From NCBI GenBank assembly GCA_032622095.1, contig CP136064.1:248281827-248345826 (forward strand): a DNA stretch of 64,000 nt, in the 5' to 3' direction. Source of the DNA: Siphonodentalium dalli. Taxonomy: Eukaryota; Mollusca; Scaphopoda; Gadilida; Siphonodentaliidae. The notes below the pieces were generated by a model, which was not told the origin of the DNA, searched no databases, and saw nothing but the letters and a program-made list of their open reading frames with translations. The translations under genes were made by a program, and so were the position numbers. This document shows, in pieces, positions 8,601-62,100 of this stretch. Numbering within the stretch: the first letter of the stretch is position 1; the number at the start of each line of letters is the position of its first letter.

Positions 8601-11600
8601 TGGCACGGATATCTAACTTAATTGAACATGATTTTGTATAATGGCACGGATATCTAACTTAATTGAACATGAATTTGTATAATGGCTCGGATGGCACGAA
8701 TCCAAATTTGTAGGATGAACAACATGAATTTGTAGAATGGCACGGATATCTAACTTAATTGAACAACATTAATTTGTAGAATGGCACGAATATCTAATTT
8801 AATTGAACAACATGAATTTGTATAATGGCACGGATATATAACTTAATTGAACATGAATTTGTATAATGGCACGGATATCTAATTTAATTGAACAACATGA
8901 ATTTGTAGAATGGCTCGGATATCTAACTTAATTGAGCAACATGAATTTGTAGAATGGCACGGATATCTAACTTAATTGAACAACATGAATTTGTAGAATG
9001 GCTCGGATATCTAATTTAATTGAACAACATGAATTTGTAGAATGGCTCGGATATCTAATTTAATTGAACAACATGAATTTGTAGAATGGCTCGGATATCT
9101 AATTTAATTGAACAACATGAATTTGTAGAATGGCTCGGATATCTAATTTAATTGAACAACATGAATTTGTAGAATGGCTCGGATATCTAATTTAATTGAA
9201 CAACATGAATTTGTAGAATGGCTCGGATATCAAATTTAATTAAACAACATGAATTTGTAGAATGGCTCGGATATCTAATTTAATTGAACAACATGAATTT
9301 GTAGAATGGCTCGGATATCTAATTTAATTGAACAACATGAATTTGTAGAATGGCACGGATATCTAATTTAATTGAACAACATGAATTTGTAGAATGGCAC
9401 GGTGAACAACATGAATTTGTATAATGGCTCGGATATCTAATTTAATTGAACAACATGAATTTGTAGAATGGCTCGGTTATCTAACTTAATTGAACAACAT
9501 GAATTTGTAGAATGGCACGGATATCTAACTTAATTGAACAACATGAATTTGTAGAATGGCTCGGATATCTAACTTAATTGAACAACATGAATTTGTAGAA
9601 TGGCTCGGATATCTAACTTAATTGAACAACATGGATTTGTATATTGGCACAGATATCTAATTTAATTGAACAACATGAATTTGTAGAATAGCTTGGATAT
9701 CTAACTTAATTGAACAACATGAATTTGTAGAATGGCTCGGATATCTAATTTAATTGAACAACATGAATTTGTAGAATGGCATGGATATCTAACTTAATTG
9801 AACAACATGGATTTGTAGAATGGCTCGGATATCTAACTTAATTGAACAACATGGATTTGTAGAATGGCTCGGATATCTAATTTAATTGAACAACATGAAT
9901 TTGTAGAATGGCACGGATATCTAATTTAATTGAACAACATGAATTTGTAGAATGGCACGGTGAACAACATGAATTTGTATAATGGCTCGGATATCTAATT
10001 TAATTGAACAACATGAATTTGTAGAATGGCTCGGTTATCTAACTTAATTGAACAACATGAATTTGTAGAATGGCACGGATATCTAACTTAATTGAACAAC
10101 ATGAATTTGTAGAATGGCTCGGATATCTAACTTAATTGAACAACATGAATTTGTATAATGGCTCGGATATCTAACTTAATTGAACAACATGGATTTGTAT
10201 AATGGCACAGATAACTAATTTAATTGAACAACATGAATTTGTAGAATAGCTTGGATATCTAACTTAATTGAACAACATGAATTTGTAGAATGGCTCGGAT
10301 ATCTAATTTAATTGAACAACATGAATTTGTAGAATGGCATGGATATCTAACTTAATTGAACAACATGGATTTGTAGAATGGCTCGGATATCTAACTTAAT
10401 TGAACAACATGGATTTGTAGAATGGCTCGGATATCTAATTTAATTGAACAACATGAATTTGTAGAATGGCTCGGATATCTAATTTAATTGAACAACATGA
10501 ATTTGTAGAATGGCACGGATATCTAATTTAATTGTAAAACATGAATTTGTAGAATGGAACGGATATCTAATTTAATTGAACAACATGAATTTGTAGAATG
10601 GCACGGATATCTAATTTAATTGAACAACATGAATTTGTAGAATGGCTCGGATATCTAATTTAATTGAACAACATGAATTTGTGGAATGGCACGGATATCT
10701 AATTTAATTGAACAACATGAATTTGTAGAATGGCACGGTGAACAACATGAATTTGTATAATGGCTCGGATATCTAATTTAATTGAACAACATGAATTTGT
10801 AGAATGGCTCGGATATCTAACTTAATTGAACAACATGAATTTGTAGAATGGCACTGTGAACAACATGAATTTGTATAATGGCTCGGATATCTAATTTAAT
10901 TGAACAACATGAATTTGTAGAATGGCTCGGATATCTAACTTAATTGAACAACATGAATTTGTAGAATGGCACGGATATCTAACTTAATTGAACAACATGA
11001 ATTTGTAGAATGGCACGGATATCTAACTTAATTGAACAACATGGATCTGTAGAATGGCTCGGATATCTAACTTAATTGAACAACATGAATTTGTAGAATG
11101 GCTCAGATATCTAACTTAATTGAACAACATGGATTTGTATTATTGCACAGATATCTAATTTAATTGAAAAACATGAATTTGTAGAATGGCTTGGATATCT
11201 AACTTAATTGAACAACATGGATTTGTAGAATGGCTCGGATATCTAATTTAATTGAACAACATGAATTTGTAGAATGGCACGGATATCTAACTTAATTGAA
11301 CAACATGGATTTGTAGAATGGCTCGGATATCTAACTTAATTGAACAACATGGATTTGTAGAATGGCTCGGATATCTAACTTAATTGAACAACATGAATTT
11401 GTAGAATGGCTCGGATATCTAATTTAATTGAACAACATGAATTTGTAGAATGGCTCGGATATCTAATTTAATTGCTACTTGCTGGTTCTCAGGAATAAAA
11501 TATTGTTCATTGTCCATTTTCAAACAGTTTAACCCTTCCATGACTGTTCAGAGCTTCCTGAAATTTTGTGAAAACCATAGGGAGCCTTGCATATATAAGA

Positions 11601-14600
11601 GAATATATTAGCCTGACAATATTTACCTTGACCTTCAAGGCTTTTAAGCCAGTGCATTCTCTTATATAAGAGAATGCACTGGCACATGATCTTTAATGCT
11701 GCACTAGCGCTGCTCCATCATGGACAGATTAATCAAGAATCGTATGCGATTTTTGTAAAATATAGCTTTTAATAGAGTGATGTTGAAATTTTCTGAATTG
11801 GATCAGTGTCTTCGCTAATTATGGCCGTTATAAGTGAAGGCCTATTCAGTTTTTAGTCAAGTTTTTTTCCAAAACTCGACTTATAGTTTGATGAGGGCGG
11901 GCGGGCTGGCGACGTGTTTTGCTTATAACTCAACCGTTTATTGACGGATTAAAAAAATTTGGTGTGTGAGTACATATCCATGCACGTAAGCTGCAGACAA
12001 AAAATTGGGTTTGTCCGCACATTTATTAGAGTTATGGCCCTTTGAATTTTCAGCTCATTAGCGAGATAACTTCAACAAACGTTATCCGATTTGATTGAAA
12101 ATTGGTATATAGGTGTCTCCCAAGAATATCTCGGATGAGTTCGAAAACCGGCCTGTTCCGATAAAATTTTATAGAGTTATGGCCCTTAAGTAGTCATTTT
12201 TCACGAATTTTCAGCTCGTTAGCGCGATAACTTCAACAAACGTTATCCGATTGATTGAAATTTGGTATATAGGTGTCTCCTAAGAATATGTCGGATGAGT
12301 TCGAAAACCGGCCAGGTCCGATAAAATTTGATAGAGTTATGGCCCTTAATTAGACATTTTTCACGAATTTTCAGCTCGTTAGCGCGATAACTTCAACAAA
12401 CGTTATCCGATTTGATTGAAATTTGGTATATAGGTGTCTCCCAAGAATATCTCGGATGAGTTCGAAAACCGGCCTGGTCCGATAAAATTTTATAGAGTTA
12501 TGGCCCTTAATGAGTCATTTTTCACGAATTTTCAGCTCGTTAGCGCGATAACTTCAACAAACGTTATCCGATTTGATTTAAATTTTGTATATAGGTGTCT
12601 CCCAAGAATAGCTCGGACGAGTTCGAAAACAGGCCTGGTCCGATAAAATTTGATAGAGTTATGGTCCTTAAGTAGTCATTTTGTACAAATTTTGAGCTCG
12701 TTAGCGCGATAACTTCAACAAACGTCATCCGATTCAACTAAAATTTTGTATATAAGTGTCTTCCAATAATATCCTGGACGAGTTCGAAAACCAGCCTGGC
12801 CCAATAAAATTTGATAGAGTTATGGCCCTTAATTAGTCATTTTTCGTGAATTTTTAGCTCGTTAGCGCGATAACTTCAACAAAAGTCCTCCGATTTGTTT
12901 AAAATTTGGAATAGACATACTTGCCAAGAATATTTCGGACGAGTTCGAAAACCAGCCTGGCCCGATAAAATTTGATGGAGTTATGGCCCTTAATTAGTCA
13001 TTTTTCAATTTTACCTATTAATTAGTCTACCAATACTGATGCACACCAATTGGCGGTAGCCACCGGCGGTAAGCCACCGAAAATGAGACACAGCATCTCT
13101 GATGTCACCTCTTGTGATGTATCTCTTGTCTAGGATTATGTCATTAGAGATGCACTGTGTTAAAGTGGTGCTTTCTTTTTTTATGCTATTGTTTTTTTTT
13201 CTTCAATGAGAAGCCCCTTTTGATGTGACAAGACTTTTCTTTGATTTTAATATTTGATTTCATTAAAATATATAGAGAATACCTACAGTTTTTGTTTGAA
13301 TATTGAAATATCTCATTAGTGTCTGGAAAGAAATATCATGAATTTTCACGAGTCACGAGTTAAAATTTGATATTGCTTTCCAGACACTCATGAGATGTTT
13401 CCGGTATTCAAACAAAAAACTGTAGGTATTCTTTTTATTATTGGTGCCTTATATCAGGACCAGACCTGTTAAGTTTTGAATATGTCAATCCGTGAGATTT
13501 TTGCGGGAGGTATGCCCAAAGATGTTCATGTTCCAAAAATAATTTTTATGATGAAGATTGAATAGTTTTTATGAGTTTCTATTTTATAAATAAAAGTATA
13601 TAGATCTAAATAAAATGGCAATGAATGTCCTGTTGGTAATTGTAATAGAGCTGCTCTGTGTGGGAGATACCACCATTTATTCAAAAGAAAGAAGCAGATC
13701 ACACTTCGTAAAAATACTCAGAATTTCACCAGATACAGCCGGATATGCGCGAAACCGAAAGTACAACATCGTAATAAACTACAAAATGTACTCGTCTTAC
13801 GGTTTGACCCACAAAAGAAATGCACACATTCCACCATTTATTAAAAATTTTTAAGAAACTTTGTTTAAAGTTAGTCAAAACGAACCCGAGTTACACAGGT
13901 TACAAACCGGACATGTATGCGTGAAACCGAAAGTACAAAATGACCCGTCTTAAAAGTATTACCCGCAAAATAAAAGACACATTCCGTTATCAATGCATAC
14001 GACTATCAGTGAACTTAAATCATAAAGTATCCATTACTTATGTTCATCAATGGGGCCTCACAATACAGCTGCACACTTGTGATTAAACGTATTTATTTCG
14101 TCTGCAATTCATGCCACTAATCCGTTACTAAGAAATGTTCATCAATGAGGCCTAACAATACAAAACTTTGCACACTTGTGATTATACGTATTGTTTACTA
14201 AAACAACACCCTTTTTCGTGTGGCTTCACCAGAGTGTGACAATCAATTAATATTAGTCACAGTTCACCACAACTTGAGTCTTCAATCAAAAGTTACCAAC
14301 GGTACATTCTGTGAATGTTAATGTGTGGGTATTTACGGTACCGGAAATAAGGAAGTCACTGTCATTTGGGGAATTCCCGTAAATGCACGAATTTAAAAAA
14401 TAAACAAAAATTCGTTTTGGGATTTTCAATGTGGTGTTTTGACGAATCCGTGAGAAATTGGGGGTTATCCGTGTTTGTGGAATTGCCGTGGAAATCCGTG
14501 AGTCTCACGGACAATCCGTGGAACTTAACAGCTCTGATCAGGACTCTGTGACGTCACGAATTAACTCTGGGAAATTTATCGGTGAAATTGTGATGCACGC

Positions 14601-26600: not shown

Positions 26601-29600
26601 TTCCAATGATATCCATATTTGTATGGTTCTATTGAGACAGACCGAAGATATTTTAGGCTGTTGAAGGTTTATTTGGCCGGTTTGTTGGGTAAAGGGTTAA
26701 AGCCACATGGTAGTTTGTGCTCCAGAATACGCCTTATAATATTTGCTTTTGATTTTTTCCCTGTATCAAAATAGGTCAATAAATACCTGAACTACTTCTC
26801 TAAGAGCATTATATATCCCAGAAAATGCATTGAGGTAATAAAAAATACAACTTCGAACATGATGATCGGGTCCTGATCAAATAGTGCACCATTTGTATTC
26901 ATTGCAATTCTGGAATAGGAAACGGAATAACATGCGACTCCCAGAAAAGGTACAGTAATGCCCTAAGTAATCGACTCCTTAACCACAGCAGAATTATGGG
27001 TAACTTTTCAGGATTTAGTCGGAAATATGGCTTGTTGCCATTCATCGGAAAGCTCTCAGTGAAATATGGCTTGTTGCCATTCATCGGAAAGCTCTCAGTG
27101 AGAGCTTTCCGATGAATGGCAACAAGCCATATTTCCGACTAAATCCTGAAAAGTTACCCATAATTCTGCTGTTAAGGAGTCGATTACTTAGGGCATTACT
27201 GTATATCTTGGTGGGGAATCACGTTGGTGAGTACCACGCACTCAAAATGTGTAAACGCACAAAAACATAATATATGAGGAATTGACACAAAACATCGCAT
27301 GTTGACTATTATGAGCATATGCTAATTTATTTTTAAAACAAGTTGATATCTTATTTGTTCGGAAATACTCACTAGTTTGCTATAACATTCTGACTAAAGT
27401 TTCCAGTCGGGGGTTCGTGGAATACACAAGACCATACATCTAGGAGAATCCTTCGACTGACAACTTTGGTCAGAATGTTAGCGCAAACAACTGTGAGTTT
27501 GGACACAAATTAGGTTTCACCTTGTTTAAAAAATAGTATAGCATATGCTCGTAGCTGCCAAAATACCATGTAATATATATTTATCCTAGTTTATTACCTT
27601 TTTCCTCGTTTCTGGTCTCGTTTGCGATCGCCTCGGCCATTTTAAATGCGTGGTACTCATCAACTCTAAACCAATTGATTCCCCACCGTGTATATCCATT
27701 ATCTTAACATGAAACAATTTAAAAACTTCACGCACTGCTTTCTCTTTGTTATAATCATCAAAATTATGTCGTACCATAAACGGATCACAGCGAAGACAGT
27801 AGATGGTCTACATGTGCAATTTTTATGCGATTGCTGATTGACAAATTCCAACTGACAGACAAAACTATTTCGAAAAATATAAGAAACGTATTTTCTGCGC
27901 TATATCAACGAATTGTTTGGAAATCTACACATGTATGTTTTGAGATACCTCTTAACAATTATCGATATATTATTTTGGTGTTTGAATGCGCCATGTCCAT
28001 TTGATCTTTGCTCTCAGAATGCATGCACCTGTTCCCGATTGATTGTTGTTTCAGTTTTTCAAGAAAAGCATGCATGCCACCCCACTTTACAATTTTTGCT
28101 CAGTAAGTCAAATTTATAGGCCTGCTTCTTAACATGTGAGATGTTGAATTTCATTGATTTCTCATAGACTACCATTAACACTGACCCAATTTCCCCCATG
28201 AATACCACACATGTATTCATATCAATCACACAAAATTCTTAGCACTTTGCAAGCTAGAGTGACAGCTAGATGGGGGACCAGCTCGCAAAATTAGGAAAAA
28301 TGTTCCATGGCAAATTTAATGCAATGGCATGTGAGATTCAAATGTTGCCACAGAGTTTCCCATGGGATTGCTTATTGCCATGACCAATTTCGATGACTGG
28401 GGGACATTCAGTTTCTCCATTGTTAATTAGAAGACACTGCAGTACATTGCAAAAGTTCAATTTAACTCAATTCAGTGCTGTTAAGACTTTGATTCAAAAG
28501 CTGTGGTCAAGGTTAAAGGGGTACTGTACACTAAATCTGGCCATATATGGGACCATCTCCTTTTATAAGAATTTGAAAGAATTTGAGCCATGGATTGGTG
28601 CAAAGTACACGCATTTGCTCTATGAATGATGGATGCACACAACATGGTAATTATAATGAAAATGAATTGGAGTCATTAATTCATTTTCATGTGAAATGTG
28701 GACACTTTTTTTATTTCTGACCAATAACTTTGTTTTCAGTTAATAAGAATTAAATAATGTAGGTTTGTTCCCACTTGGATTCATGCTTCCTGAGGGGTAC
28801 TTAACCCTTCCATGACTGAAGCTTCCTGACATTTTGCGAAAACCCTGTGCCAATGCATTCTTTTATATATGTGATTCTCCCATAGGGAGCCTGCATATAT
28901 AAGAGAATGCATTGGCATAACAAAATTTACCTTGTAAGCCATTGCATTCTCTTATATATGCGAGGCTGCACTGGCACAGTATCTTTAATGCTGAGCCAAG
29001 CCTGAGTTTAGTGTGCCTGTCATTTGCAGAATGAGGTCCCCAGAGGGTGAATTTAGTGACGCTATCCCGCAGTGGCTAGCATCATTAAATTCACCCTCTG
29101 GGGGACCTCATTCTGCTTAGGCCTCATCTTCTCTGGAAAGATTCTTTATTATCAAATTTCTATAGAAACTTCTTCACAATGATTCTATTTCTTTTTTAGT
29201 TTAGTTTCTCTATATCCCCAAATTGGCAGACGACACATTGCATAATCAAGTTCCCAATGGGTGTTCATCACAATATTCACCATTTGGGAACTTCAATCTG
29301 AGTCCATGTCTCCCATAGCAGATGAGGCCTAAGCAGAATGAGGTCCCCAGAGGGTGAATTTAGTGATGCTAGCCCGCTATGCTACGCTATGGAGCAACTT
29401 CTTTCTTGAAATTTGGTCCTGGCTATACAAATTTGCAACTCACAGAAATATGTTAATTTTTCTGCTGCTATTACTTTACAGGTGACAGATTTTGGTTTGT
29501 CAAAGTTTATTGATGCTGGGTCCATCATGAAGACATTCTGTGGAACACCTACGTACTTAGCTCCAGAGGTTATACTCACCGCGGGAACGGGTGCATACAC

Positions 29601-32600
29601 AAAGGCAATCGACTGCTGGAGTCTCGGTGTTATTCTCTATATATGGTATGATTCTGTTGGCTAATTTTATACTCTATGATTCTATTGGCTAATTTTATGC
29701 CCACCATGGGAACGGGTGCACAAAGGCAATCTGCTGGAGACTCAATCATTCTCTATATATGGTATGATTCTGTTGGCTAATTAGTTATGGAGCTGAGAAG
29801 AGAGTATCCCATTCACTCCTGAGTAAGTTTCCTTTGTACACAGTAACATATTACAATCTCCACTTTTTTGTCCCCCGAAAAATTCATTTTCGGGGGACTA
29901 TTGTAATCAGCTCCGTGCGTCCCTCCGTCCGTCTGTCTGAGTCTCTGTCCACAGTTATAACTCCAGTAATGATAATCCGATTTGATAGAAACTTGGTATG
30001 TAGGTTCTCAACCAAGAACACAGGTGCTCTGCAATTCTGGGTTTGATCCGATGTTCTTTTATGGAGTTATTTCCCTTTTTTCAACTTTATTTTTACTTAG
30101 AAAATTTCTCACTTTTTCGGTTTCCTGATGATATCTCAAGTTTGGATCCTTTAATTGCAAATACCGTTTTTATGTGGATCAGTCATATCAAGATACAGGT
30201 TAAGATCGAATTTGAGTTTGACCCGATGATTTTTCCTAGAGTTATGGACTTTTTTTTACTTGGAAAATTCAATTTTGCTGCTTTTTTCTTTAGTTTCCGG
30301 ATGATAACTCAAGTTTGGATTGTTTAATTGGAAATTCTGTTTTTTTTTGTGGGTCATTCATATCAAAATACAGGTCAAGTCGAATTTGAGTTTGATCCAA
30401 TGATTTTTCCCAGAGCCTTTCGACTTTCGATTTTCTGTATGAGGGTACCTTCATGGTGTAATCAACTCCTCCTACAGTTTTGATCGTAGATATTTGAAAC
30501 TTCAGAGTATTGTTACCCACATATTGGAGATGTGCAACATGTATATAGATGACGGAAACATTATTTTTTTACAGAATTATTAACCCTTTCGACTTAGAAC
30601 ATTTCAACATTTGTTTTAATTTCTTTAACAAAGCGGCATCGACTTTCCACGTTGTCGGGGGACACTGTGGTCAGCCGACCTTTTATTATCTACTAGAAGC
30701 GAATCATGGAAAATGAATACCAAATAAACACATAAAGTAACTTAAAATAACATATCATAACTTTACATAACATAACATAACTTTAAATCAATAAGCTAAT
30801 CATTTCTATGCTCATTTCTCCAAGAACATCGCTTTTCCAAAGTTTTTCACTTATCTGACAAGTTTAGATCGAGAACTTCTAACTTCAATGTTCCCATGAT
30901 GCATCTGATCAGCAGGCATTCTCGCATATTGATCAAGATGGATCACATTTATCCTTATTAGAAAAAGTCTCACAATTGAGTCAGTTGGGTGACTGTAGGC
31001 AGTTAACAGTGACTGGCATTTGAAGTTAGAAATTCACCACCTAGACATGTCTATTCTGTTAGCAAAGCTCACCTGTTATTACTTTAGTCCCATAAACAGC
31101 ACACAACCACCATTGACCACCATTGACATCTCACTCACTTTCCCTCTAAATTGTCTCCTGATCACTTCCTGTTTCAGCAGACACTCACTTCCTGTCTATA
31201 TTTAGTAACTGTTATATACACTGTCATTTACACTGTAGTTCATATTAACATATTCTATCATGCCAAACTTGTAGTTGGAGCTATAATTCCAGCTTTTATA
31301 TTGCACCTGATATAGAGAAATTATTGGAATAACGTAGACCATGATGTTATATTTAATTGTATGGACTGACAGATTACATTCTAATCCACAGTTTGGTTGG
31401 ATATCCACCATTTTCTGATGAGAGGAAAGACATGGACCTAACTAAGCAGATCACTGGTGGACATTACACATTCCCAAAACAGTATTGGAGTAGCATTTCT
31501 GAGGATGGTAAGTTCTGTAATGCAGACAGTACCATTGCAAACAAACTTATTATCCTGTACCGGAAGCTATGGTTGTTGGGCATGGTGCTATCTGAGTTGA
31601 AGTTAATCTGTTAAATGAATTTTATGAGAATAGCAAAATTATAATCTCGATATAATTAGACCTATAAGATTAAATCCTGCAAAATGTCCTGTTCGGATTC
31701 CCAAAATTTTTATGAATGTCAATGTCATGTTTATAACATGCACCGGCAAATATTATTATTGAAGTCGCACCATGGAAATATGGTGATTTTCGTAACATTG
31801 TATCAAAAATAGGAGACATTAGATGGATACCACAAATAAAATATCTTAGAAAAGTCAACATAATCCTCTTTATTTCATAAACTTATAATGTTATTGCTAT
31901 GTGTTTGTGATAAACTATATTATAATAAACCAAATCGGTATGTGACTCAAAACATCTGTCGGCAATACTGCATTAACAATTTTTAGTAAGCCCCAAATAG
32001 TAATTGTGATGTCATACAGGTGCTGTCTATATTTTGGCCAGGAAAATCTCTTTATGGCTTGCATGTTAGATCTGGTATTGATACCAAATATCACCTAAAG
32101 CATATCCAAGTTGCTAACCAGTAAAATCATCTGTATTTTCCTGGAAATATTGTAATATTCCTGAAAATTATGCTCTGCCTGCTAAAGCAGGCTGCCGTGA
32201 TGAACGTAAATTACGTCATGCACCCTAAAGTGGGCAGCAGTGATGAATGTAAATTACATCATGCACCCTAAAGTGGGCAGCAGTGATGAATGTAAATTAC
32301 GTCATGCACCCTAAAGTGGGCAGCAGTGATGAATGTAAATTACGTCATGCACCCTAAAGTGGGCAGCAGTGATGAACGTAAATTACATTATGCACCCTAA
32401 AGCGGGCAGCAGTGATGAATGTAAATTACGTCATGCACCCTAAAGTGGGCAGCCATGATGAAAGAGTTGAGAGGCCTGTTTGGCTTGTAAATCTTCAGAC
32501 ACAGATTTCCTTGAAATCACATTGGCATCGTCAGATTTGTGTTGTCAATAAATTTGAACATCATTTCATTCTCACACAGAATATCTTTCTTGTTAGTTAT

Positions 32601-35600
32601 CTATACATGATATCTTCTCTTGCAGCTGTTGATCTTTGTAAGAAGTTGATGGCTGTTGAACCAAAATCAAGAGTTCCTCTGTCAGAAGCCGTCAACCATC
32701 CATGGTTCAAGGTATCATTGTTTTCATTTGTTAAAATGAAACATCCTTATATTTTAATATACAATATATTGATACTGCTTGTGTAATATATATAGAATAT
32801 GTAGCTAGTGTCGTAGCTTAAACTGTTTATGTCCATGATGGAGATTTGTGCATCTATTAGGCGAGGCTCTGCCAAGTCCAATATATGCCAAATCCCACGA
32901 GCGGACATAAACAAGCGACAACATTAGCTACATATTTTATTTATCCATCGCACAAAACTTGCTTTTTGTGAGTTTTACATTCATTATTTTGATGATGCCC
33001 TTACATTTATTAGGTCAAGCAAACTTATTAGCATTCATGATGTGGGAAAACCGGAGTGCAGCTTAAGATTGAAATGATTCATTGGGTTTGTTTTATAGTT
33101 ATTCTAAGCTGGCCTTGTTGTAATGGCTTATAGATGTTTAGAGTGAAAACACATATCCTTTTACAAATTTTGTGTCAATTGGGGTGGATTATGGACGATA
33201 AAAACATCCCAAAATCACAATGACTGCATTTGTGTCGGTTGACGTCCCTAGTTACCTGCGCAATTAACATATGCAATTACGTCATGAAAGTAGTACTAAC
33301 CTAATAAAGCTACGTTGACCTAATAAAGCCACATTGACGTAATAAACGTAATGTTTATTAGGCAGGCTTTATGTAGGCAATATAGTTAGTGAGCGGTGGA
33401 TATATATTGATTTCAATTCCTAATCATTGTAAAATGACCATTTTATTATTAGTGATATTATTGACATATGAAGCTTTCATTATATTTGAAGATCAGGGAT
33501 TTAAAAAAAATTCTATCACATGTGGCCATAATCTGTCAACAAATGCAATTCTCATGGTTTCTGTTCTCAGTCACCGGAAATATCATGTTGATAACTTTCA
33601 TTAGAGATTAGTATTAAATTCATCTTAAATGCATGTGGAGTACTATAAGCTTATTTTAGGGCAAATTTTTTTTGCAGAATTCATTCCATTTCAAAATCAT
33701 TACTTGAAAAATGAAAGGGCCCACAAGGCCCAGGATAACACAGTAAAGGCTCATACTACCTCCTTATTTCCTTATTTCCACTGTGATTGGGATGTAAAGG
33801 CTCATTTTCAACAAAAGGTATATAGTCGTTTGATAAACGGCCTATGGACATTTCTTGAATTTACTATCTGAACATTTCCTAAGGGAACCATTGGATCTCT
33901 TAATTGTTCATCAGCAAATATTGATCCGTCCACCTTTATAGTGAACCATGATGTTCAAGCATAATTGACAAATTATTGTGATTCGTCTTACTTCAGTATG
34001 TACGTCACCCCATTAAAAACATATTATTTGGCAAATCTTGCTTTAGCTAAAACCTGTATCATAAAAATCACGCCTGCAAATAATGTGTCTGTTATTTGCA
34101 GAATGAGGTCCCCAGAGGGTGAATATAGTGATGCTATCCCACACTGAAGGCTAGCATCACCAAATTCTCCCTCTGGGAACCTCATTCTGTTAGGGCTCAA
34201 CTGCTATTGGAGACCTAGGATCATATTGAAGTACGCCAGTTGAAGTTGGTACATGTAATGTTCACCCATTAGTCACCTCAATTATGCATTTTATCTTCTG
34301 CAAATTTATGGGATATAGAAACTTCCCAGAAGGGAAAAAGTAACTAAAAACAATGTTAATTGGAGACCAGTGTTCGCGCTGGACCGAAATTTTATTTAGC
34401 CAAAAGTTTAGCCAAATGAAAATTTTATTAGCCAAATGAAAAAAACTTTAGCCAAATTTGTTTTGGCAAAATTAAAAAAAATATGGCCAAATTAAATCAT
34501 CGTTTTATTGTCGGTTCACAATTAATGACTAAAACGTCAAATCTAACAGGCACAGGTAAAATACACAATAATTTAACTAATTTTGATGAACTAGAAATAT
34601 TTTTATATATGTCATTTATTAAAAATTTATTAATCTTTATGTGAAAGAGTGATTTGGGGGGGGGGGGGGGGGGGGTGGTAACCCGGGATTGGGTATACGG
34701 ACATTTCCCAACCGGACATTTCCCCACTTTCTTCTTTTAAATCATTAAATATTAATTATCCTTGCGAAAATATCTAAGTGACATCTCTGGAAACTAATAA
34801 CTTAATATTGTTACGCCATTATCAAATTACAATCTGTCATAAACGCATGCATATTATTTTGAATGTATCGGTATTGACGAAAAATAGCGACAAAATATCT
34901 GTCGTGATTCACATTTGGCTGATTAAGCTATTGTCTTACACTTGGTGCTCATAAACCTTGGCCGTCATAAATACAATGTCATCATAAACATGCATTGTGC
35001 AGGAGCCCCGTGAGCAGGGTTCGCGCTGCCACGTGCCAAATTTGCCAATGGCAAAAATAATTCACATTTGGCAAAACATATTTTCATTTGGCAAAAGTTT
35101 TGGCAAGTAACTTTTTAATTCCTCAAGCAATTTGAAAAATATTGGTAAATCACTACCAGTAATTTCAGGAAACGCTTTCACCGTCATTATATTAGTGGTG
35201 TTTTATAAGGTTTAGGGAAAGTCAACACCTCTATTAAGATGCAATTAATCACATAACATTAGTACTGATGTTTGGAGGGATTACTAATCCTTGTGCGATG
35301 TACCCTTCTGATGGAGAAACCCTTCTACAATTGTGATTGGCTTATTGGTGTATGATAAACCACAATAGAGATGCGAGTATAATTAATTATCAACTAACTA
35401 CTTTTCTATCGATATAAAAAGTCGTTCAAACCGAGAGTGTCAAAACTTAAGGTTGCAGAAAATGATACTTGGCAATTGCTAAAATAATTTGGCAAAAAAT
35501 ATTTTCATTTGGCAAATAATTTGGCAAATGTAAATTTCGGTCCAGCGCGGACCCTGCCCGTGAGTGACCATACAGACAATGGGGGATTAGCGGATTAAAT

Positions 35601-47288: not shown

Positions 47289-48256
47289 ACTAGAAGGTGA
47301 CCCGACTTCGTCCGGGCTTTGACCTTGAATTGTCTATTTTGAAGGCCAATGTCAAGTGGGGTCATGATTTCTGCCCGAACAAAAGTACCCGTCGAAATCC
47401 ATCCGGTTTTACCCGATTTGACCTTGAATTGATCATTTTGAAGGTCATGGTCAGGTCGGGGTCACGATTTGACCCGTCCAAAACACCCAGTGGACAAAAG
47501 TAACCATATGTATAAAATTTCGTCGAAATACCATCAAAATTGGCGATTTGACCTTGAATTGACCCGATTTCAAGGCCAAGGTAACGTCGCACGGGCAAAT
47601 GAATATGATTATGAGACTCCCCATACAAAAGTACCCCCACATACCAAGTTTCATCGAAATCCCGTGATATTCGGGCGTATGACCTTGAAATGACCCGATT
47701 TCAAGGCCAAGGTCACGTCGCACGGACAAATTAATATGCTTATGAGACTCCCCATACGAAAGTACCCCCACATACCAAGTTTCATCGAAATCCCGTGATA
47801 TTTGGGCGTTTGACCTTGAAATGACCCGATTTCAAGGTCACGTCGCACGGGCAAATTAAGATGCTTATGAGACTCCCCATACGAAAGTACCCCCACATAC
47901 CAAGTTTCATCGAAATCCCGTGATATTCGGGCGTTTGACATTGAAATGACCCGATTTCAAGGTCACGTCGCACGGGTAAATTAATATGTTTATGCCACTC
48001 CCCGGCCGAAAATACACCCACATACCAAGTTTCATCGAAATCCCGTGATATTCGGGCGTTTGACCTTGAAATTACCCGATTTCAAGGTCAAGGTCACGTC
48101 GCACGGGCATATTAATAGGCCCATGTCACTCCCCGGCCGAAAATACCCACACATACCAAGTTTCATCGAAATCGGCTCGGCCGTTTTTGAGTCCATCGAT
48201 TACAGACAGACACACACACAGACACACACACAGATCTTCCAAAATATATAATAGAT
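47289..48256. repeat. CTAGAAGGTGACNCGACTTCG element, copy B, expanded
   Basis: Same start and end as copy A, but the ~125-bp module (TTTCATCGAAATCCCGTGAT at 47649, 47780, 47905 and 48030) is present about four to five times rather than once or twice. Three such elements lie head to tail over 2 kb with the 46189 element. Confidence 0.82.
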
Positions 48257-50185: not shown

Positions 50186-53100
50186 GTAAGTTGAGTTATT
50201 TTGAGTGTTGACGATGGTATCACCCATGTTCGTTGTAACGTCTAAATATACAGTAAATGTGACTAAATATACAGTAAATGTGACTAAACATTCATACAAA
50301 GGTAATATATATCTATATACAGTAAAACCTCTGTGAATATTCGCCTGTGAATAATTCTCACTAAAAATTACCGCAATAATCCGGAAACTCTCTATTCCGA
50401 ACATTGGAGGGCTTTTCTAGTTCATAAGTGAACAAATGCATAAATTTTTACCTCAGAAATCCGAACACAGAAATGAACACCAACCGAATGCACATGCTGT
50501 AGATTTGACATACAGACCTTCTCAAAAGTAATGGACCGCGTTACGACCGCGTTGGAGTAACGTTACGACCGCGTTGGTCCAATGCGGTCGTAACGTTACT
50601 CCAACGCGGTCGTAACGTTACTCCAACGCGATCGAGGAAACCGCCAATGCAACATAACGCGGTCGGCACGACCACCAACGCAAAAAACGCGGTCGAGATA
50701 ACCGTCAACGCAACAAACGAGGTCGGGAGAATAGCTTATCAACTGTAATAATAATTATTGAATAACATTGTAAACATGAACTTTGAGACATGAACTCATT
50801 TTATTAAAAAATCATTAAATTGAAAAGAGAAAATGAACCAATTTTAGTTTCATACAATTTTCTGATAGGAAACAGAAAGTGTTGTAATCAATCGAGACGG
50901 TGACCGTGTGTTTGGCTTGGGTGATGCATGATTTATTGGTGATGTTTTACATTTACATTTAGAATTTTTCTGGAAAAAAATAATAAATAAATGCATATCA
51001 CATCGATCGCGCTGCACGAATTAATAGAGATGCAATTGAGATTTCTAACAAACAAAAAACTTTGAGTTCACGTCGCAATGTACATGTACGTGTATTCTTT
51101 GAATATTTAATATTCAGCGTCACCTCCTAATAAAGGTCAATAACCTGTACGCCAAGGGTCCGATGTCATTTGAAATCTTCGTGAGGGTACGATAAAACAC
51201 ACATCTACATTTACACGCACGTTCGTAATTGACACATGGATATACATGTACAGTGATGCAAATAATTTAGAATATTAATTATCCATGTGTTGTGAAATAC
51301 ATGTAAAACAAACAGCGCTCAGATTTGGTTACCAGTGATTTTTGTCACTTTAACCAACAGACCGCGGATCAAAAGCATGCCGCGAATGATTGACAGCGGT
51401 GTCAATAGACGCAAATACAGTACGGGGCGTGTCTTCGGTAAAGTGGAGAGTGATACCATGCGACTCAAACGGAATTCTCGATTGAAAACGTGCTGTCATA
51501 ACTTCGTCGGTTTTGATTAGCTAGTGACCACACGATGAAGTCTTGTTCAGGTGTTACTTTATTCATTGATGATGAAATAACGAAATCATTCGTATTCAAT
51601 GGTGCTTCAAAGAGACCAACAATGTATAATCCGCTATTGTGTGGGCAAGCATATGATAAATATTAACTTTCTTTTTACCGTAGGATATATAAGTTGAATA
51701 ATATTGTTAACTTCAGTTTTTTTTTCACCGGAATTAAATCACTGCAATTCAATTATTTATTTGTCTTCATCAAATATTTGAAAACAATGTACAATGTACA
51801 TTTGAAGATCCAAGCGCCGTCCGACGCAGTAGATACCAAATTAGACAATTTTTTTTCTTCTAGATATTTCCGCCAAAGGAAGCCCTCACACTGAACTATA
51901 TGGATAGATGTCCTGCGTTTGTAAACCATAGCAGAAAAGGGGTTAACTTTTTGTGGTCGCCTACGGTCACTCACGGTCTGTACTCTTCAGTGGCTTGCCT
52001 CGGAATCAGTCACGCATGCGCAGTCCCAATATAATTCACTGTACATATTGAATTAGCCAGTTTATTTTTCTGCTACCAACCTATAAACGGATCTAAGGGA
52101 GTATTTTTCCGAATTTGTCGTTTAACAATAGCGACAAATTCAATTTATCGATACAATAATTACTGGTCGCCTACGCGTTCGTTTTTATAATTATCGTTTC
52201 GAATTCACGGACCGTTTCGTTTCAAACATATAATTGTTCGTGTTTTTCGAACAGGCGGCTAACTTAAAAACAATTTATCGAATATGAAAATCAGCATTTC
52301 GCCATAATTAGCCGCCATTTCAAGGCCTTATGAGGCGCACAGATTATTGTGAGAAATACATCTATGGAATTATTATAGCACCTATAAGGTATGATAGAAT
52401 TTGTCAGATATCAAAAATGCCACGTGATTCTCCGCCGGAAGTATCCTAATTTCGTGGGAATTATTTTGACGTTTTAATGCGTGGAAATTTATTTAGCAAT
52501 AATTCCATCGCTACTGACGCTATCTCTCGTCATGTTATGAACAACGTGCTTTCACATAATACTATGTTTCAATACAAATGATCCAGATGTGTTAATCACG
52601 TTTGACCTTGAAGTTGATTACAATCTACACAAGAATACTGACAGTTGATTAGATCTTGGTTTATCAATGTCACATGCATAACAATAACTTCATATGACAG
52701 TAGTACCGTAGTGCTACGAATAAATCTCAGCCATGTCATAGATGTATGTCGATTAATAGCTACCTTGTATATACCGCTATTCTCAAAGTGATTGACCAGA
52801 AAAACGGGGTGATACCCCGGTCATGACCGCGGTGATACCGGTAATAAACGGTAGCGGTATCGGGACGGTCATGGCGTGAAGTTACGGTATTGGGCGATGA
52901 TGCCGTGGTCTTTTAGCGGGCGCCGCGTTGGTTTTGTTGAATACCGCGGTGGTTTTCATGGAACTCTTTTAGGGGGTGTATTAGTGTTCAAACGATTAGT
53001 CGACAAATAATCGTCGACGTTGGTTTGTCGGAAAATCGACTCTAACTTCCACAGTCGACTAGTCGGAATACAGTATATTTTCTCATCAGCTGGCCTTGAC

Positions 53101-56100
53101 AATGCATGGTTTCACTATTTAAAATGTGGGTCAGAAAAGCAGCAAAGATAGCTAGTCTATGTTCAAGAAGCTTTCCAAAGTCCGAACATATGTAATAATG
53201 TCGAGCTTGACATAGAACTATGCCGAAATTCGCCAATGCGATAATTCAAGTTAACCACTACTCATTTTCAATACAAGAGCAGTAACTCTATATTTGACTT
53301 CTAAAAAGCACGTGGTCCATAAACAGTGAGTATTACTAGTAGGTCGCGGCATACTTGACCGACGTCTCACGCATGTTCCAGGTTAATGCCACGATGTTAT
53401 CATTTATTTTGGTTCAAATAGTCATGAAACGGCGACAATTAACTTGCTGAGAAAATTATTCTTTTTATATATATACTCCCTATACCGCGGACGCAAAAAT
53501 TTGTAGTGTGCATTTCTAACCAACACAGGTAAAGAGGGAGGGGCTTCCACAAAAGTGTTCATCGATACTAACTGATTCTAACTCTCCGCTTGCTACGTAC
53601 GCCTTACAGAAGTTATGGAAACTTACAAAGTAGGCCTATGTACGCATCATCGTATATATAATGTGTGTCACACAGTGTGTGTGTTTTCTTTTATTTTGAG
53701 CTGACTCCGAGACTGAGTATCGTTTATTTTCTTATACCCTGGCAGGGAAGTATTTATTTGATTTCATGATTAAACAGAAAATCCCTCAATTATTTCCTCA
53801 ATTATTTATTCTCATTATCATCGTAGATTCGTAGGGAACTTATTTGCGATCGGTGTGTTTCTAGAGCACTGGTTCATTTGCAACAAAACCATGTGACGTG
53901 TCACGTTATTCAATTCTCCAATCACAGTAGAGTGTAAATATTGTGATGATGGCACGGAATTTGTAATTTTCTTTCACATGTGTTTCATTAGTATAAGGTT
54001 GGTGATGTATTTGGCCGACTAGTCGACGTCGACTCGACTTTTGGGGTTCGACTAGTCGACTCCAGAATCCCAGAGTTGTTTGAACACTAGGGTGTATTTA
54101 TTCGCACATGCTTGTTCGCGTTAACAAGCGGTATCAGTACCGCGGTATTGGAGGATACCGCGGTATACTAGTAGTACCGCCATATTAACTGGGTGACACC
54201 ACGTTATTGGTGGTTAATTACTTTAAGTATGGCGGTAGGTCTAATGAACAATAGCTGCGATTATACACCAGCCGGTTCAGCAAGCCGGTCTGAACCGGTG
54301 GGCTTGTAAATTTCTGAGAAGGATCCAGGGATGTTTTTCTACCTGTTACAGGTTTGGGCGCTCAAACTCTGGAGACCCTGGGGATAGTAATTATTCAAGT
54401 GGTTCTCCATTATTTCAACGAATTTTTCTATAATTCAACAACTAAACATGAAAATCGGATGAGATAGTCTACTAGTATGATATAGAGTCTTTATTTGCAC
54501 CATCTCTGGATCCTTCCCAGGTAGTATTTCTCGGTCGGATCTCTTCTCGGGCAGGAACAGTTCACGCTCCCCCGATTATGCCGCGGCATTAAATCAATTA
54601 GTGGGGAGGCGACCGGTGGCGATGCAGGGGTACTTGGGACCCCCAGGACATTTGGTCCCACACCGGCGCAAGCGGTTCTGTGTGCTGAAGTTGCCAAATC
54701 GCGTGCGAACGTAACGACACCGGCTGGGCGGCCTACGGCGACTTCGGCATAGGGCAGTGGCCCTACCCATTCGGTAGCAAGCCCGGTCCCCTTGGTCACG
54801 ATCTATATAAAGACACGGCCTTGCCTGCCTCTCAGCCGTCTTGGGGTTTCTGCTGCAATGGCCTCTACCCATCGTTCTGCTTGGACAGGACATTCAGCTT
54901 GGTCGGGACCACCTGCATTTGGGGGGGGGGGGGGCTCACCCCGGTCCGATGGCTCCACCTCCTTCCGGTTATCAGAAGAAACCAGTTTTGGCTATGGGAT
55001 TCTTCATTTCGACACTGGACTCCAAAATTGGAACTCAGTTTATCAGCCTTTTGCTCAAACAGTTGGCCGTAGCTTAAAATTCCATGGGAGGTATTTACAC
55101 CTCGATTGAGCCATCGCCGGAATGGGCCTCTTCTAGTGTTTTGTCGTCCATTATTGCAGGTCGTTCCGACGCTAGGGCAGAGAGCGACATGCTATCCTTA
55201 CACCCCAAGGCGTCTGAGGCTTTCGATGACGACCCGTCTGCGCACAATACGTCAGACTGTGGGTCTTTTCGGTCGTCACAGTCTGGCATCGGTAAGGCAG
55301 AAGCTGCGGATCGTGATTTCCTATCCACGGATTATCTCATCTATAGGCTTCTTCCTACTGAACTATGAACTCTCAAGCCCTCCTGGCACGCCCTGCGCAA
55401 TCGTACCACCGTCTTCAAAATGCATCGAGAACTCGATCTATCTTACCTGTGATATACATTTCATAGGTAAGGTACACGACCCGCGACTGACACACTGGTC
55501 AATAGACTTCACACATGAATGAAGCACATTTACATAGAAAGCATTTCTCTTGTCACGTGCCACAACGACCCTGCCAATGGCCTGGCCGACAGAGTACATC
55601 TCATGGCTCTTCATACTCCTATTACCAATATCAATTTGATTATCTGGCACATGGTAATAAAATTAACAGGGCACTGCACGCCTATAGACAATAGACAATA
55701 ACACGGGCAAAGACGTTTGCACTGTCCATCTCAGCTTTCTAGGAAGCTCATTGACTAGCGTTATAGACCTTTCCTTGCAGGCAGGGGACCACCCAGTCCG
55801 AGTGGATCCCAACCCCATGGCACCCGATCATAAGCGCCTGAAACCATGCTGCCAACTATGCGCGCTTCGGTATATGCCGGATTTGTCCTATCAACATTCG
55901 ACAATAAAACAGGCAAAGACGTTTGCGCTGTCCAGCTCAGCTTTCGAGGAAGCTCATTGACTAGCCATCAAAACTTTCCTTGCAGGCAGGGACCAACCCA
56001 TATGAGGGGATCCCAACCACATGGCACCAGCCGCCCAATCATAAGGGCCTGAAACCATGCTGACAACTCTGCTCGCTTCGGTCTATGCTGGATTTGTCCT

Positions 56101-59100
56101 ATTTTCCTTAAACATGCCTTCAACAGGACCACTTAGGTCGGGGGAGCTCCTCTCTATCATGGCTCTTAAAATTCAATAAGTAACAACATTATAAAGGGAT
56201 GTGTGTCCTTTACTAGGAGGATGAAAATTTCATTTGTTTCCTTAATCAGCGAGCCATTTTGGAGGGGGTCTTCCCCTAGTTTGCTGCATGCCTCACACTA
56301 ACATACCTATCACACACCTAGGTCGTTCTGCTGCATGTTTGGGGGGGAAAGTGACATGATGTTCTGGGCAGAGGCTCAGAACTGAATATTCCGTATGGTG
56401 ACAATTTACCCGTGGTTATCATCTGATTACATTGTACATCATTTGAACTGATTTCAGTTGTCATAGAGCCAAAGGGCCTTCTGCAATGATCTCATTGCTG
56501 ACTTATAGATCACCTTGATATATAATTTTTATATCATTTTTTATATATTTATATCAGTCCTTCCCAGGAGACGGGAGTGATTGCTCTCGCACCCGTATGC
56601 TCTCGTAATTTTCAATTCACGGGTGCTAAAATTCGCACCCGTTCTTCTTCACAAAATACTAATGGAGACTGTAATTGTTGGTTCAATATTGAACTATTTT
56701 AAGGTTTATTTAGATGCTTTACCATCTCAGTGCAACTATGGCATATTAAAGTGTAACTAGACATAGGTCTATTCCACAATGACTTTTTGTTTGAGCAAAA
56801 AACCCAACTTACATGTACAATTATGGTATCGTATGGGTGCCATATTACACCCGTCTTCTGCATTACGGGAGCAAATAAATGCTCTCGGTGTGTTTTCCTC
56901 ATGGGAAGGACTGTTTATATCCTCGTAAGTTTTGTATCACAGGATTTCTGTCGGATATCTTGTGATGCATAGGTACCTCAGAGACATGTGATCATTAGAA
57001 GAAAAACAAGGAAGCTGTTCTCAGAACGACAGGGGGCATGACCACCTTGCAAGATGCGGTGGTGGGGGCTCCCTCTGTTCAGATGGCTTGACTCCATTAT
57101 CGTTGTACAACCTGTTTGGCCTAATGGGTTCTCAACTCAATCCCTGTGCCACAAATTTGGCATCAGGTTCTCTGGCTTTTTCTTTGGCGAATAGCAGTTA
57201 GTTAACTTTGGTTGTCTCGCCATCGTCGGAGTGGGCCTCCGTCTGTGCCGGTCGTTCTGTCGCTAAGGCGGAGAGTGAGTTAGTCTCCTTCCTTCATGAT
57301 CCTGCATCATGGGACCTTGACGGGTGGGACCTTAGAACAGACAGCTGAAGAAGACGACAAGGTTTCTTCTAACGTTATACTTGCTCGGTTCGCTCGCAAC
57401 TATGCATTGGATGGCACCTCATGGGATGTTTGTTTCAAAACAAGGGGGGGCGGTACACATTTGAGCAATATAGCACTCTAACTATATGAGTTATTTCACG
57501 TAAATAATCCTAACAGATTCATTAAAGTGTTCATATATGGTACAATCTGTTTTAGAAGAGTACTTTTACTCAAAATTTGGCTATTAACTTTATTGCTCGT
57601 GCCTCCTCCTGGGCTTGCATTCTAATCCATATAGTTCAGTGTGAGGGCTTCCTTTGGCGGAAATATGATATTTTTAAAAATATAATATATATTTCCTTAA
57701 AGAAAGCCTGATCACTGAACTATCATAGGGCCCTCCCATGGCGGTGCCATTCCCAACCCCGCGACTCGCCAATCTTCTGATTGAGTTGAAAATAAACTCG
57801 CTAATTCAATATGTACAGTGAATTATATTGGGACTGCGCATGCGTGACTGATTCCGAGGCAAGCCACTGAAGAGTACAGACCGTGAGTGACCGTAGGCGA
57901 CCACAAAAAGTTAACCCCTTTTCTGCTATGGTTTACAAACGCAGGACATCTATCCATATAGTTCAGTGTTCAGGCTTTCTTTAAGGAAATATATATTATA
58001 TTTTTAAAAATATCATTTCCGGGTTATAAAAGCAAACTTTAATATAGTCACCATCAATTATTATGTCACAGAAATCGCAAAAAAAAAACACACAAATGTC
58101 CACCGTTTTATTATCGATCTATATCTACATACGTTTGTGGTTTTACATTGAAAACGAGTACAAACTATCATAATTTAAACGCTCTTTATTAAATACCACA
58201 TTTCGGTGTAAACATGGACGCTCTTTATTAGAAGCGATAATTTGATTTTTTTTGCAAGACTGACAACAAGTGAGTTAAATGTATTCTCTTGAAAGTCGAT
58301 ATCTAGTCATCAAAACCTCATATAATAAAAAGTTCTTTTGCACATATATTTACAGTATTCTCCGAAATTCGTTATCATTTCTACTGACAAGTACATCGTA
58401 AAATATTAACAATTCAAATCACAAGTCTACATTCGACACATGGCTTACCCGTTTGATTTGATGCCGGACTAAATATATACGGTAATTTAATGTCCCGCTA
58501 AAAAAAAAAAAAAACACACACCACCACCAGATAATTTTCTGTAACTCCACCCATATTTGAAAATTGATTGATATGTGTACATGCAGTATGTAAAAATCGG
58601 CATGACCACCAACGCAACAAACGCGGTCAAGTTATCCGTCAACACAACAAACGCAGTCGAGATAACCGTCAACGAAATGGAATGTTTCCAAAATAATACA
58701 ATGTTGTTTGCGTGACGAGATTAATGCATTCTGATTAGTGTTAAATGTTTTACATATAGGCCCACATTTAGATTTTTCCGGGGAAAAAACTAATAAATAA
58801 ATGTAGATCACGTTGATCACAACGCTGTCGAGTAAACCGTCACGCAACAAACACAGTCGAGATAACCATCAACGAAATGGAACGTTTCCAAAATAATACA
58901 ATGTTGTTGACGTGATGGGAGTAATGCATGATAGATTTGTGTTAAAATGTTTTACATATTGGCCCACATTTAGATTTTTTCCGGGAAAAAATAATAAATT
59001 AATGTAAATCACGTTGATTGCGCTGCACGAAATTAATGGAAACGTAATCGAGACTGCTAACAAACAAAACATATTGATGTCACGTTGCTATGTACATGTA

Positions 59101-62100
59101 CATGTATGTGTGTTATTTGAATATTTAATATTCAGCTTCATATCCGTTTAAATGTCGATTACCTGTACGCTCATTTATAGACCAAGGGTATTGTGTCAAT
59201 TCCGATGTCGGCCGAAACTGTATGAAACATTAAAGCGCGTTTATATACGCCATAAACAAACGCCATGAAAAATTCCAGAAATGTTCACGACGCTCGTTAT
59301 GTATACCACTATACACGTGCATGTACATGTACCGGTAGCATTAAATAAACCAATAATCATTATAAAATAAACACGATTTGTGATTTATGTCGTAGAATAC
59401 CATGACTTTATTCGGACTTTCATTAGCCTCTCGTCGGTAGTTCGTAAAATATTATCCAGATATCAGTGCCACTTTAATACAAGGAAAGCATAAATCCCCA
59501 TCGCGAACCTCTATTGGACCACGCACGCTGCTGAATGGTGACATTGTCTCGTTCTTTGAAGTTATTATTAAATTTAGATCAAAGGAATTTCTGCAAGATA
59601 TTTTTATACCATGTAGCAACTTTGTGAAGATGACTCCTCCTACCAGCTTGTATTCTGTATTGATTGACTGTGATTCAAACACAGAATTCTCGACTGGACA
59701 CGTGCAATCATAACTTTGTCTGTTTTGATTGGCTAGCGGACATCGTGTGCCACAATGATCACGCAATGAGGCCGTGTCACTTTCACGATGATGAAATAAA
59801 CTTACTCAACGTGGCTTCGAAGAGACGTTACATGTTTCAGTAATTGTCCGCTATTGTATTGGCAAGCATACATGTATGGTAAATATTAACTTTTACTTTT
59901 TACCGTACTAGTAGTATATATAAGTTTAATAATTCAGTTAAATTCTGTTTTTCTCACCAGAATTAAATCACTGCAATTCAGTTTCTTTATGTGTCCTCAT
60001 CAAATATTTAAAAACAAAACATATACATTTGAAAACGTGTGTGCTACTGTGCATTGATCATTAGCGCAACGTGTTTAACGTAAACGCGGTCTGTGTTAAA
60101 CTTCAACGAAGTCTGCATTAAACTTCAACGCGGTCCGTTGAATTTCAACGCGGTCGTAACGTATCAACAACGCGTTATCAACGCAAAAAACGCGTTACGT
60201 TGGCGTTACGACCACGTTGAGGACCGCGTTAAAAGGGCCACTTATTTTGAGAAGGTCTGTACTTGATGATGAGATCTTTTTGGCTTTGGTAGTTTGGAGA
60301 GAGAGAGTATAGGTGGGTTAAGAAGCGCCTGGGATTTCACACACGTGATGGTCAAAAAGATCAAGTGAAGCTTCTCCTTCACCCCATTGGCTTTGGTGAA
60401 AACTGGGGACCCTTTATACACAGTAACTGGACATAAACTCCCAAAAATAAGGTTTTAATCGAGTTTATAAATTGGTATCCTACTATAAGGATAAAAAGTT
60501 ATGCAGGCTTAAAAAGCCATTTCCACGTGCCCGGACAAACATATCTCAAATAAAAGCACTAAACACAAAATGCCGGGCATATGTCACCTGTTTCCTATAA
60601 ATAACATTCTCAGCTGTAACGATGTAGCACCTTCCAGGAGATACCTTCATTCCATTCCGGCCCGCGTTTCCGTTCCGTGTATGATACCCCCCGCCATTGT
60701 TGACATCACGCTTCCGCTCTGGGAGTGTCAGTAAACAGATCGCCGAGGGTGGACGCATTTCGACGTAGCAGAGATTAATTGGTTGTTATTATAAAGGTAC
60801 TTAATCAATTCATGTCTGTTATACCCTCGGAAGTGGGAGCTCCAAAGGACCATGACGGGGCGTGGTATCATATGTGTTGATTGCATATTATCATGTTTTA
60901 TTCGCCATTTATTCAATAAATTGATAAAACGTCATTTTCTGTTGCCTAATTCCGTGGACTCTTGTAGAGTCCGAACCTTTGAAATTCTGTTAATGCCCAA
61001 TGCCCCCCGGTCACTCAAAGGGTAGGACGTTACACAGCTCAAACACTGCAGCGATAAAACCGTTTAAAACATTTTTCACCATTAGCTACAAGTGACGCGT
61101 CGCCATCCATATCGCCATTTTGTTTCTAAGCATTGTGGGAAGGGAACCGGTGTTCTGAAAAAAAGTGCATGTGTTCCGACATTCTATTTGTTGCAGAACA
61201 CCGGTCTTTCCAATTACTGATTGAATAAGTGTACGAAAACATTGAAAACATGGATGGCGACGAGTGTGATAATATTTCTCTAGAATATAAATATCAATAG
61301 AGAGCTGCTTGGCAGTTCTGAGAAAGAAGTAAGTAAATTACTGAACTAGTCTTAATGCAAACTGCAGGGATAACAATTTTTGAGAACGAGGCACCTGGTG
61401 TCGGTTGTTTAGAGGGGCTCCGATTGAATCTAGGGTGTTGTCCTAGCATGTATATTGTACAACATATTGACTGACAGTATAATTATACCCCCTTTTTAAA
61501 AAAAATGGGGGGTATACTGTTTTGCACCTGTCCGTCCGTCCGTACGTCCGTCCGATGTCTGTTCATGTCATAACTTGAACAGTATTGCTCGGATCTTAAT
61601 GAAATTAGGTATGGATGTTCACTACTATGAGGACATTAAATAGAGGGTTCCATCGTTTTGTTCGGATTTTCCATTCTAGAGTTATTAATCTTTGTTTATC
61701 TGGAAATGTTGGCTTTTTGGTCCATCTGGTGTCTGTTCATGTCATAACTTGAACAGTATTGCTCGGATCTTAATGAAATTAGGTATGGATGTTCACTACT
61801 ATGAGGACATTCAATAGAGGGTTCCATTGTTCTGTTCCGCTTTTCCATTCTAGAGTTATTCATCTTTGTTTATCTGTAAATGTTGGCTGTTTGGTTCATC
61901 CGATGTCTGTTCAGGTCATAACAGTAATGCTTGGATCTCAATGAAATTTTTGTATGGATGTTCACTATGAGGTCATTTAATGGCACATTCAACTGTTTTG
62001 TTTTGGTTTTTTGTTCTAAAGTTATTCATCTTTGTTTATATGAAAATGCTGATTTTTTTTTTAAATGCTTACTTTACAGTCCGTATGTCTGAGTATATCA

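Follow-up and report, generated by a model that had tools for sequence, protein, structure and literature searches.

A DIRS1-type element without recognisable enzyme genes, and its family, in the genome of the scaphopod Siphonodentalium dalli

Here we describe a retroelement at positions 51864-58016 of a 64,000-nucleotide stretch of DNA from the scaphopod mollusc Siphonodentalium dalli (GenBank assembly GCA_032622095.1, contig CP136064.1, forward-strand positions 248,281,827 to 248,345,826), the whole of which is referred to as the window. The element carries termini and an internal complementary region (ICR) of the DIRS1 type and is very probably a member of a recently active, non-autonomous retrotransposon family that is mobilised in trans. 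This reading is carried by the anatomy of the element, by its copy number, by the lack of recognisable enzymes in the two copies that were scanned whole, by the homogenisation of the inverted terminal repeats (ITRs), by a target motif and by one precise unoccupied repeat unit. A related sister family was found in the same genome.

The two ends of the element are inverted repeats, as an earlier note on this DNA had proposed: 51861-52068 pairs with 57789-57995, with 199 of 207 aligned positions identical. At the left, ~24 bp are divergent; the conserved ITR spans ~180 bp, and the right extension adds ~24 bp. The left ITR opens with an AT that is common to element and target. The same note had also described an internal segment fusing the complements of both ends, and alignment bore this out. 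The left half of the ICR, 57625-57666, is the reverse complement of the left end, 51864-51905 (42/42), and the right half, 57665-57723, is that of the right end, 57958-58016 (58/59), the two halves overlapping by the 2 bp AT. The BLAST E-values of these matches within the window, 8e-16 and 1e-23, together with the genome-wide recurrence of the ICR against empty reversed-pattern controls, exclude chance. The coordinates given in the note were right to within 2 bp; the ICR, placed there at 57627-57722, is corrected to 57625-57723, and the element start moves from 51865 to 51864 once the shared AT is counted (Table 1).

In the host genome as searched (2.23 Gb, 9 contigs), the exact 47-bp ICR pattern occurs at 194 places and a 41-bp ICR core, with up to 3 mismatches allowed, at 614 places, sister-type ICRs included; the reversed-pattern control gave 0 in both cases. 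The window right ITR gave 1407 first-look candidates, the best 40 of which were scored, at 97-100% identity, and 20 of the 39 other scored copies were read. Both ends are present in 18 of these 20, while L031 and L043 have no left end and stand outside the ITR counts. Fourteen of the two-ended copies measure 4593-5126 bp and the rest 1196, 3195, 6013 and 6535 bp, and identity to the window is 96-99% over shared sequence. Matches to an ORF1-like piece of the interior (115 used of 150 scored, the 35 omitted being mainly those with a 98-aa frame) recur together with the ICR: among the listed matches on contigs C1-C4, an exact ICR lies within 4 kb of 45 of 58, and the spacing from ORF1-like piece to ICR is mostly 2446 bp or close to it. 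Such near-constant spacing leaves little room for a reverse transcriptase (RT) and a tyrosine recombinase (YR) between them.

Pfam scans in all six frames returned nothing above the curated cut-off, neither RT, RNase H, MT nor YR, in the window interior or in copy L045, which agrees with the earlier note in finding no recognisable RT or recombinase in the interior. Besides these two copies, the insertions of L040 (six frames) and L036 (three frames) were scanned, and 10 separate open reading frames of the 46 listed likewise gave no Pfam match. Matches below the cut-off were set aside, namely DUF7145 in the L040 insertion (E 0.0002, 21.8 against 28.2 bits), BNLF2a in a frame of L045 and PAZ_2 in L051. 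In viral contigs, a 22-mer had 0 exact matches and no relative of the ORF1-like protein was found, none of 19 pattern stretches being confirmed.

The occurrence of many broadly collinear copies without recognisable genes therefore points to an amplified non-autonomous family, and the note's suggestion of a non-autonomous DIRS derivative is supported by the DIRS-type ends, the enzymes not found and the many collinear copies. An alternative is that the copies descend from an autonomous DIRS family and decayed independently, each losing its genes by itself. The persistence of ORF1-like remnants with broken frames would fit such decay, but it is contradicted by a body common to the copies at 96-99% and by the mostly equal spacing between ORF1-like piece and ICR, from which it follows that gene loss preceded amplification. 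We therefore reject independent decay, which we consider very unlikely.

The ITRs were compared within and between copies, with the caveat that choosing copies by their likeness to the window right ITR biases both divergence figures down. Within copies, 9 mismatches over 3343 sites separate the conserved parts of the left and right ITRs (0.27%; 18 copies and the window), and 13 of these 19 copies are free of mismatches, whereas between copies the conserved region differs by 1.5%, equally for left-left, right-right and left-right comparisons. This difference suggests that with each cycle the two ITRs are renewed from a single source. The shortest copy, L046 (7977-9175), lies at a standard AT target and forms a palindrome of 1196 bp whose 400-bp arms are 98% identical, in which a left-type end is followed by an inverted spacer and ICR, a normal ICR and the right end, so that two ICRs lie in opposite orientation. 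It may have arisen by a template switch, its end being rebuilt from the ICR, or by recombination within the nearly identical ITRs, and its make-up may show the ITR, spacer and ICR to be nearly all that is needed in cis.

Insertion sites were read with the window included and L034 dropped as a duplicate of L033. The right flank starts with AT in 20 of 20 copies and the left flank terminates in AT in 17 of 18; C stands before the left AT in 10 of 18, and past the right AT the most frequent bases are, in order, W-T-T-K-G-G. The circle junction as read from the ICR is C-AT-ATT (CATATT), so that target and circle have the core CAT-W-TT in common, as predicted for recombination between matching sites. 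No target duplication beyond the shared AT, and hence no target-site duplication (TSD) of several bp, was found among the copies read. The joined flanks of L050 are identical to an unoccupied place over 160/160 positions, and they match a further 39 scored places at 96-99%. These flanks have secondary matches ~155 bp away, which identify a tandem satellite; the matched places are therefore other repeat units and do not represent this locus in its empty state. The L050 insertion removed nothing and duplicated nothing beyond AT. The right flank of L043 is similar to those of L040 and L050, at the same position of the ~155-bp satellite, either by repeated targeting or by later duplication.

Inverted termini of ~200 bp are also what would be expected of a TIR (terminal inverted repeat) DNA transposon or a foldback element moved by a DDE transposase. 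However, the target duplication here stops at the shared AT, the ITRs are homogenised within copies, and that the ICR is kept in 614 cores is hard to reconcile with such an element; no role in cut-and-paste transposition is known for an ICR that fuses both ends. On these grounds a TIR or foldback transposon is rejected as improbable in the extreme. Equally, a dead element could have gained its copies mainly by segmental or satellite amplification and not by transposition, and the flanks shared by L033 and L034, and by L040 and L050 within a satellite, are of the kind that this would produce. Most of the 20 copies, however, have flanks that are unrelated by eye and still follow the AT rule, so we give amplification of this sort very little credence.

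For a DIRS1-type family mobilised in trans, the following cycle may be envisaged, whose RNA step and circle are inferred, as are the helper's existence and identity. The element would supply only sequences acting in cis (the ITRs, the spacer, the ICR and a transcribable body), with RT and YR provided in trans. RNA lacking the outermost ends would be reverse transcribed, after the published DIRS model, with both ends restored and joined on the ICR as template. This would give a circle with the junction ...ATC-AT-ATTTCC..., and the YR would swap strands with a CAT-W-TT target in the genome, leaving no duplication beyond the shared AT. An RNA intermediate is suggested by the anatomy and the ITR homogenisation taken together.

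The same terminal layout is tabulated for 28 DIRS1-like elements in section 10 of PMC3266345; SkoDIRS1, in Table 3 of that article, has a length of 6052 bp, a divergent ITR of 16, a conserved ITR of 202, a right extension of 30 and an ICR of 67-63. With the elements described there the window family shares the division of the ITRs into divergent and conserved parts, the right extension, a short circle junction at which the ICRs are fused, and insertion without a TSD. Its junction overlap is 2 bp (AT), as in AmDIRS1 and BfDIRS2, whereas most of the DIRS1-like elements tabulated there have 3 bp. Unlike them, it has no recognisable set of gag, YR and RT/RNase H/MT genes, and its body holds two ORF1-like remnants, possibly gag. 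PAT-like and Ngaro-like elements, as presented in PMC3266345 and PMC9210276, are also YR retrotransposons, but with split direct repeats in place of ITRs and ICR; the termini of the window element are inverted, not the split direct repeats of the PAT-like, Ngaro-like and VIPER-like groups. One published non-autonomous derivative resembles the window family in its status within the YR retrotransposons; it is related to split-direct-repeat elements, measures about 435 bp by the lengths in that account, and its mobility is left open there. Our literature search for non-autonomous DIRS elements, which did not extend to Repbase or the wider literature, turned up only PMC3266345, for "deleted DIRS".

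With ITRs, a two-ended ICR, an extension complementary to the ICR only and TSD-less insertion at a junction-like sequence, the window element is DIRS1-like by structure. In coding content it falls outside the definition of an autonomous DIRS1-like element, RT, RNase H, MT and YR having gone undetected in the Pfam scans of the window interior and L045, and it is classed here as a non-autonomous derivative. The DIRS cycle, with ends rebuilt from the ICR, a circle and recombinase-driven insertion, is described as experimentally not fully proven in a 2017 review (PMC5633606). A family without recognisable genes but with hundreds of matching ICRs, a target motif, an unoccupied site and a 1.2-kb copy separates the cis requirements from the proteins, and provides natural material for testing this cycle.

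Copy L040 holds a second, related 3' end adjoining the main copy, and this defines the sister family, of which less than 3 kb of one copy was read. Relative to the window, its ICR is identical at 96/99 positions, its spacer at 63/65 and its right terminal at 57/60, while its interior pieces are mostly 73-83% identical; thus the cis-acting parts are kept and the body drifts. The sister right end gave 1879 first-look candidates (best 40 scored), and the exact sister-type ICR pattern occurs at 173 places in the host genome. Both families are without recognisable genes in the parts read, their bodies differ by ~17-27% and their ICR and spacer are nearly unchanged; the gene-less state may therefore predate the split between them. 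We tentatively raise, though we lean against it, the possibility of a long-lived parasitic lineage that was already gene-less at that split and has been kept going by a helper whose termini differ from its own. At C1:186027637-186028007 a window-type right ITR (97%) lies beside an exact sister-type ICR, possibly an inter-family recombinant.

A search of the host genome with PF00589 gave 1445 first-look candidates, and many of the best 150, which were scored, fall within long frames that stay open for up to 661 aa. Elements bearing a YR are therefore present in this genome, although some of these matches may belong to Cryptons or Ngaro-type elements instead of DIRS. Several observations weigh against the reading as a recently active non-autonomous family mobilised in trans. 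No element combining these ITRs with a YR or RT was found in the helper searches, which took in some half of the exact ICRs (100 of the 194 window-type and 100 of the 173 sister-type places being listed) and one YR candidate in ten. On C1-C4, 0 of 63 scored YR matches lie within 8 kb of the 99 exact window-type ICRs listed there, the count is again 0 of 63 for a distance of 10 kb from the 100 sister-type ICRs listed, and a search through the sister-type right end and ICR gave no helper match. At all 10 of the YR loci read (of 150), the 900 bp downstream resembled the ends only weakly and over short stretches (best E 0.02), though in some of them the open frame continues for 120-180 aa and an ITR could lie beyond 900 bp. 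The left flank of L032 ends in GT, not AT; L033 and L034 share both flanks and look like a single duplicated insertion; and L040 and L050 share flanks, yet both were entered in the flank counts. The 20 copies were drawn from among the best matches to the window right ITR, which favours intact ends, and enzymes were sought by Pfam profiles only. Finally, conservation of the sister-family ITR is not strict, its conserved part aligning at 141/150 with gaps. The note's idea of spread by a helper stands as far as the non-autonomous family is concerned, the helper itself being conjectural and none having been found near the listed ICRs; full-length relatives with RT, RNase H and YR, looked for in the same genome through YR matches near those ICRs, did not come to light.

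Table 1. Parts of the element and features nested within it (window positions)
Feature	Position	Strand	Remarks
Left inverted terminal repeat	51864..52068	+	First ~24 bp divergent and left-specific; from ~51888 conserved with right ITR
Outer nested insertion	52774..54235		Alignment breaks at 52773/54236; contains the presumed hAT-like element
Nested DNA transposon, presumed hAT-like	52982..54089		8-bp TSD GGGTGTAT; 12-bp perfect TIRs TAGTGTTCAAAC
ORF1-like remnant A, possibly gag	54549..55368	+	Broken frames; no Pfam match
Tandem pair of ~210-bp unit	55681..56102	+	84% identical; present in most other copies read
Nested TIR element (CAGTCCTTCCC...)	56555..56913		7-bp TSD TTTATAT
ORF1-like remnant B	57034..57290	+	177/246 identical to A; 218/255 to the sister-family (L040) piece at the same place
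Internal complementary region	57625..57723	-	Complements both ends, joined over AT (circle junction)
Spacer, ICR to right ITR	57724..57788		63/65 identical in sister family
Right inverted terminal repeat	57789..57992	-	Pairs with left ITR
Right extension	57993..58016		Complementary to ICR only; terminates in target-shared AT

A duplicated ORF1-like piece had been noted in the interior. The two stretches, 54907-55199 and 57040-57290, are indeed homologous (score 120, against 40 for the best of 200 shuffles), but at 72% identity in DNA and 48% over 42 aligned protein positions they are diverged and represent no recent duplication. Piece B is nearer to the sister-family piece beside the ICR (218/255) than to A (177/246), and the sister-family piece matches A at 216/299; pieces A and B thus probably parted before the two families did. 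Neither piece, possibly gag, has a Pfam match, and in two of the copies read a frame shift occurs at a G run. Many of the best 150 scored matches to piece A sit in open frames of 174-234 aa. A coding function for piece A was considered and set aside, conserved coding being unsupported, with L061 and L062 using different frames upstream of the G run.

The nested insertions differ in their distribution among the 20 other copies. The outer insertion is present in 5 (in L031 its right part only) and absent from this place in 13, the region being missing in L043 and L046. The element within it, which we take to be hAT-like by the criterion of an 8-bp TSD, is missing from all 20; in 4 of them the outer element is seen on both sides but the hAT-like element is not. 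By comparison across 30 loci, the window included, the TIR element at 56555-56913 is found at the same position in 10, with an apparent empty site in 18; this shared position suggests that it was multiplied by the retroelement after a single insertion.

Elsewhere in the window, a long tandem array of a 44-bp unit occupies 6211-11474 (132-bp period, ~41 copies, 91% matches), and further arrays lie at 12044-13007 (161-bp unit), 47542-48173 (125/256 bp) and 61546-62048 (174 bp). The tandem repeat at 27022-27101 resembles, by eye, the right flank of copy L044. Just outside the element, 58642-58991 contains a direct duplication of ~150 bp at 200-bp spacing, 90-94% identical. An open frame at 32382-32786 on the + strand has a below-cut-off match to the end of Pkinase (E 0.0018, 18.1 against 31.7 bits) and is perhaps a kinase exon.

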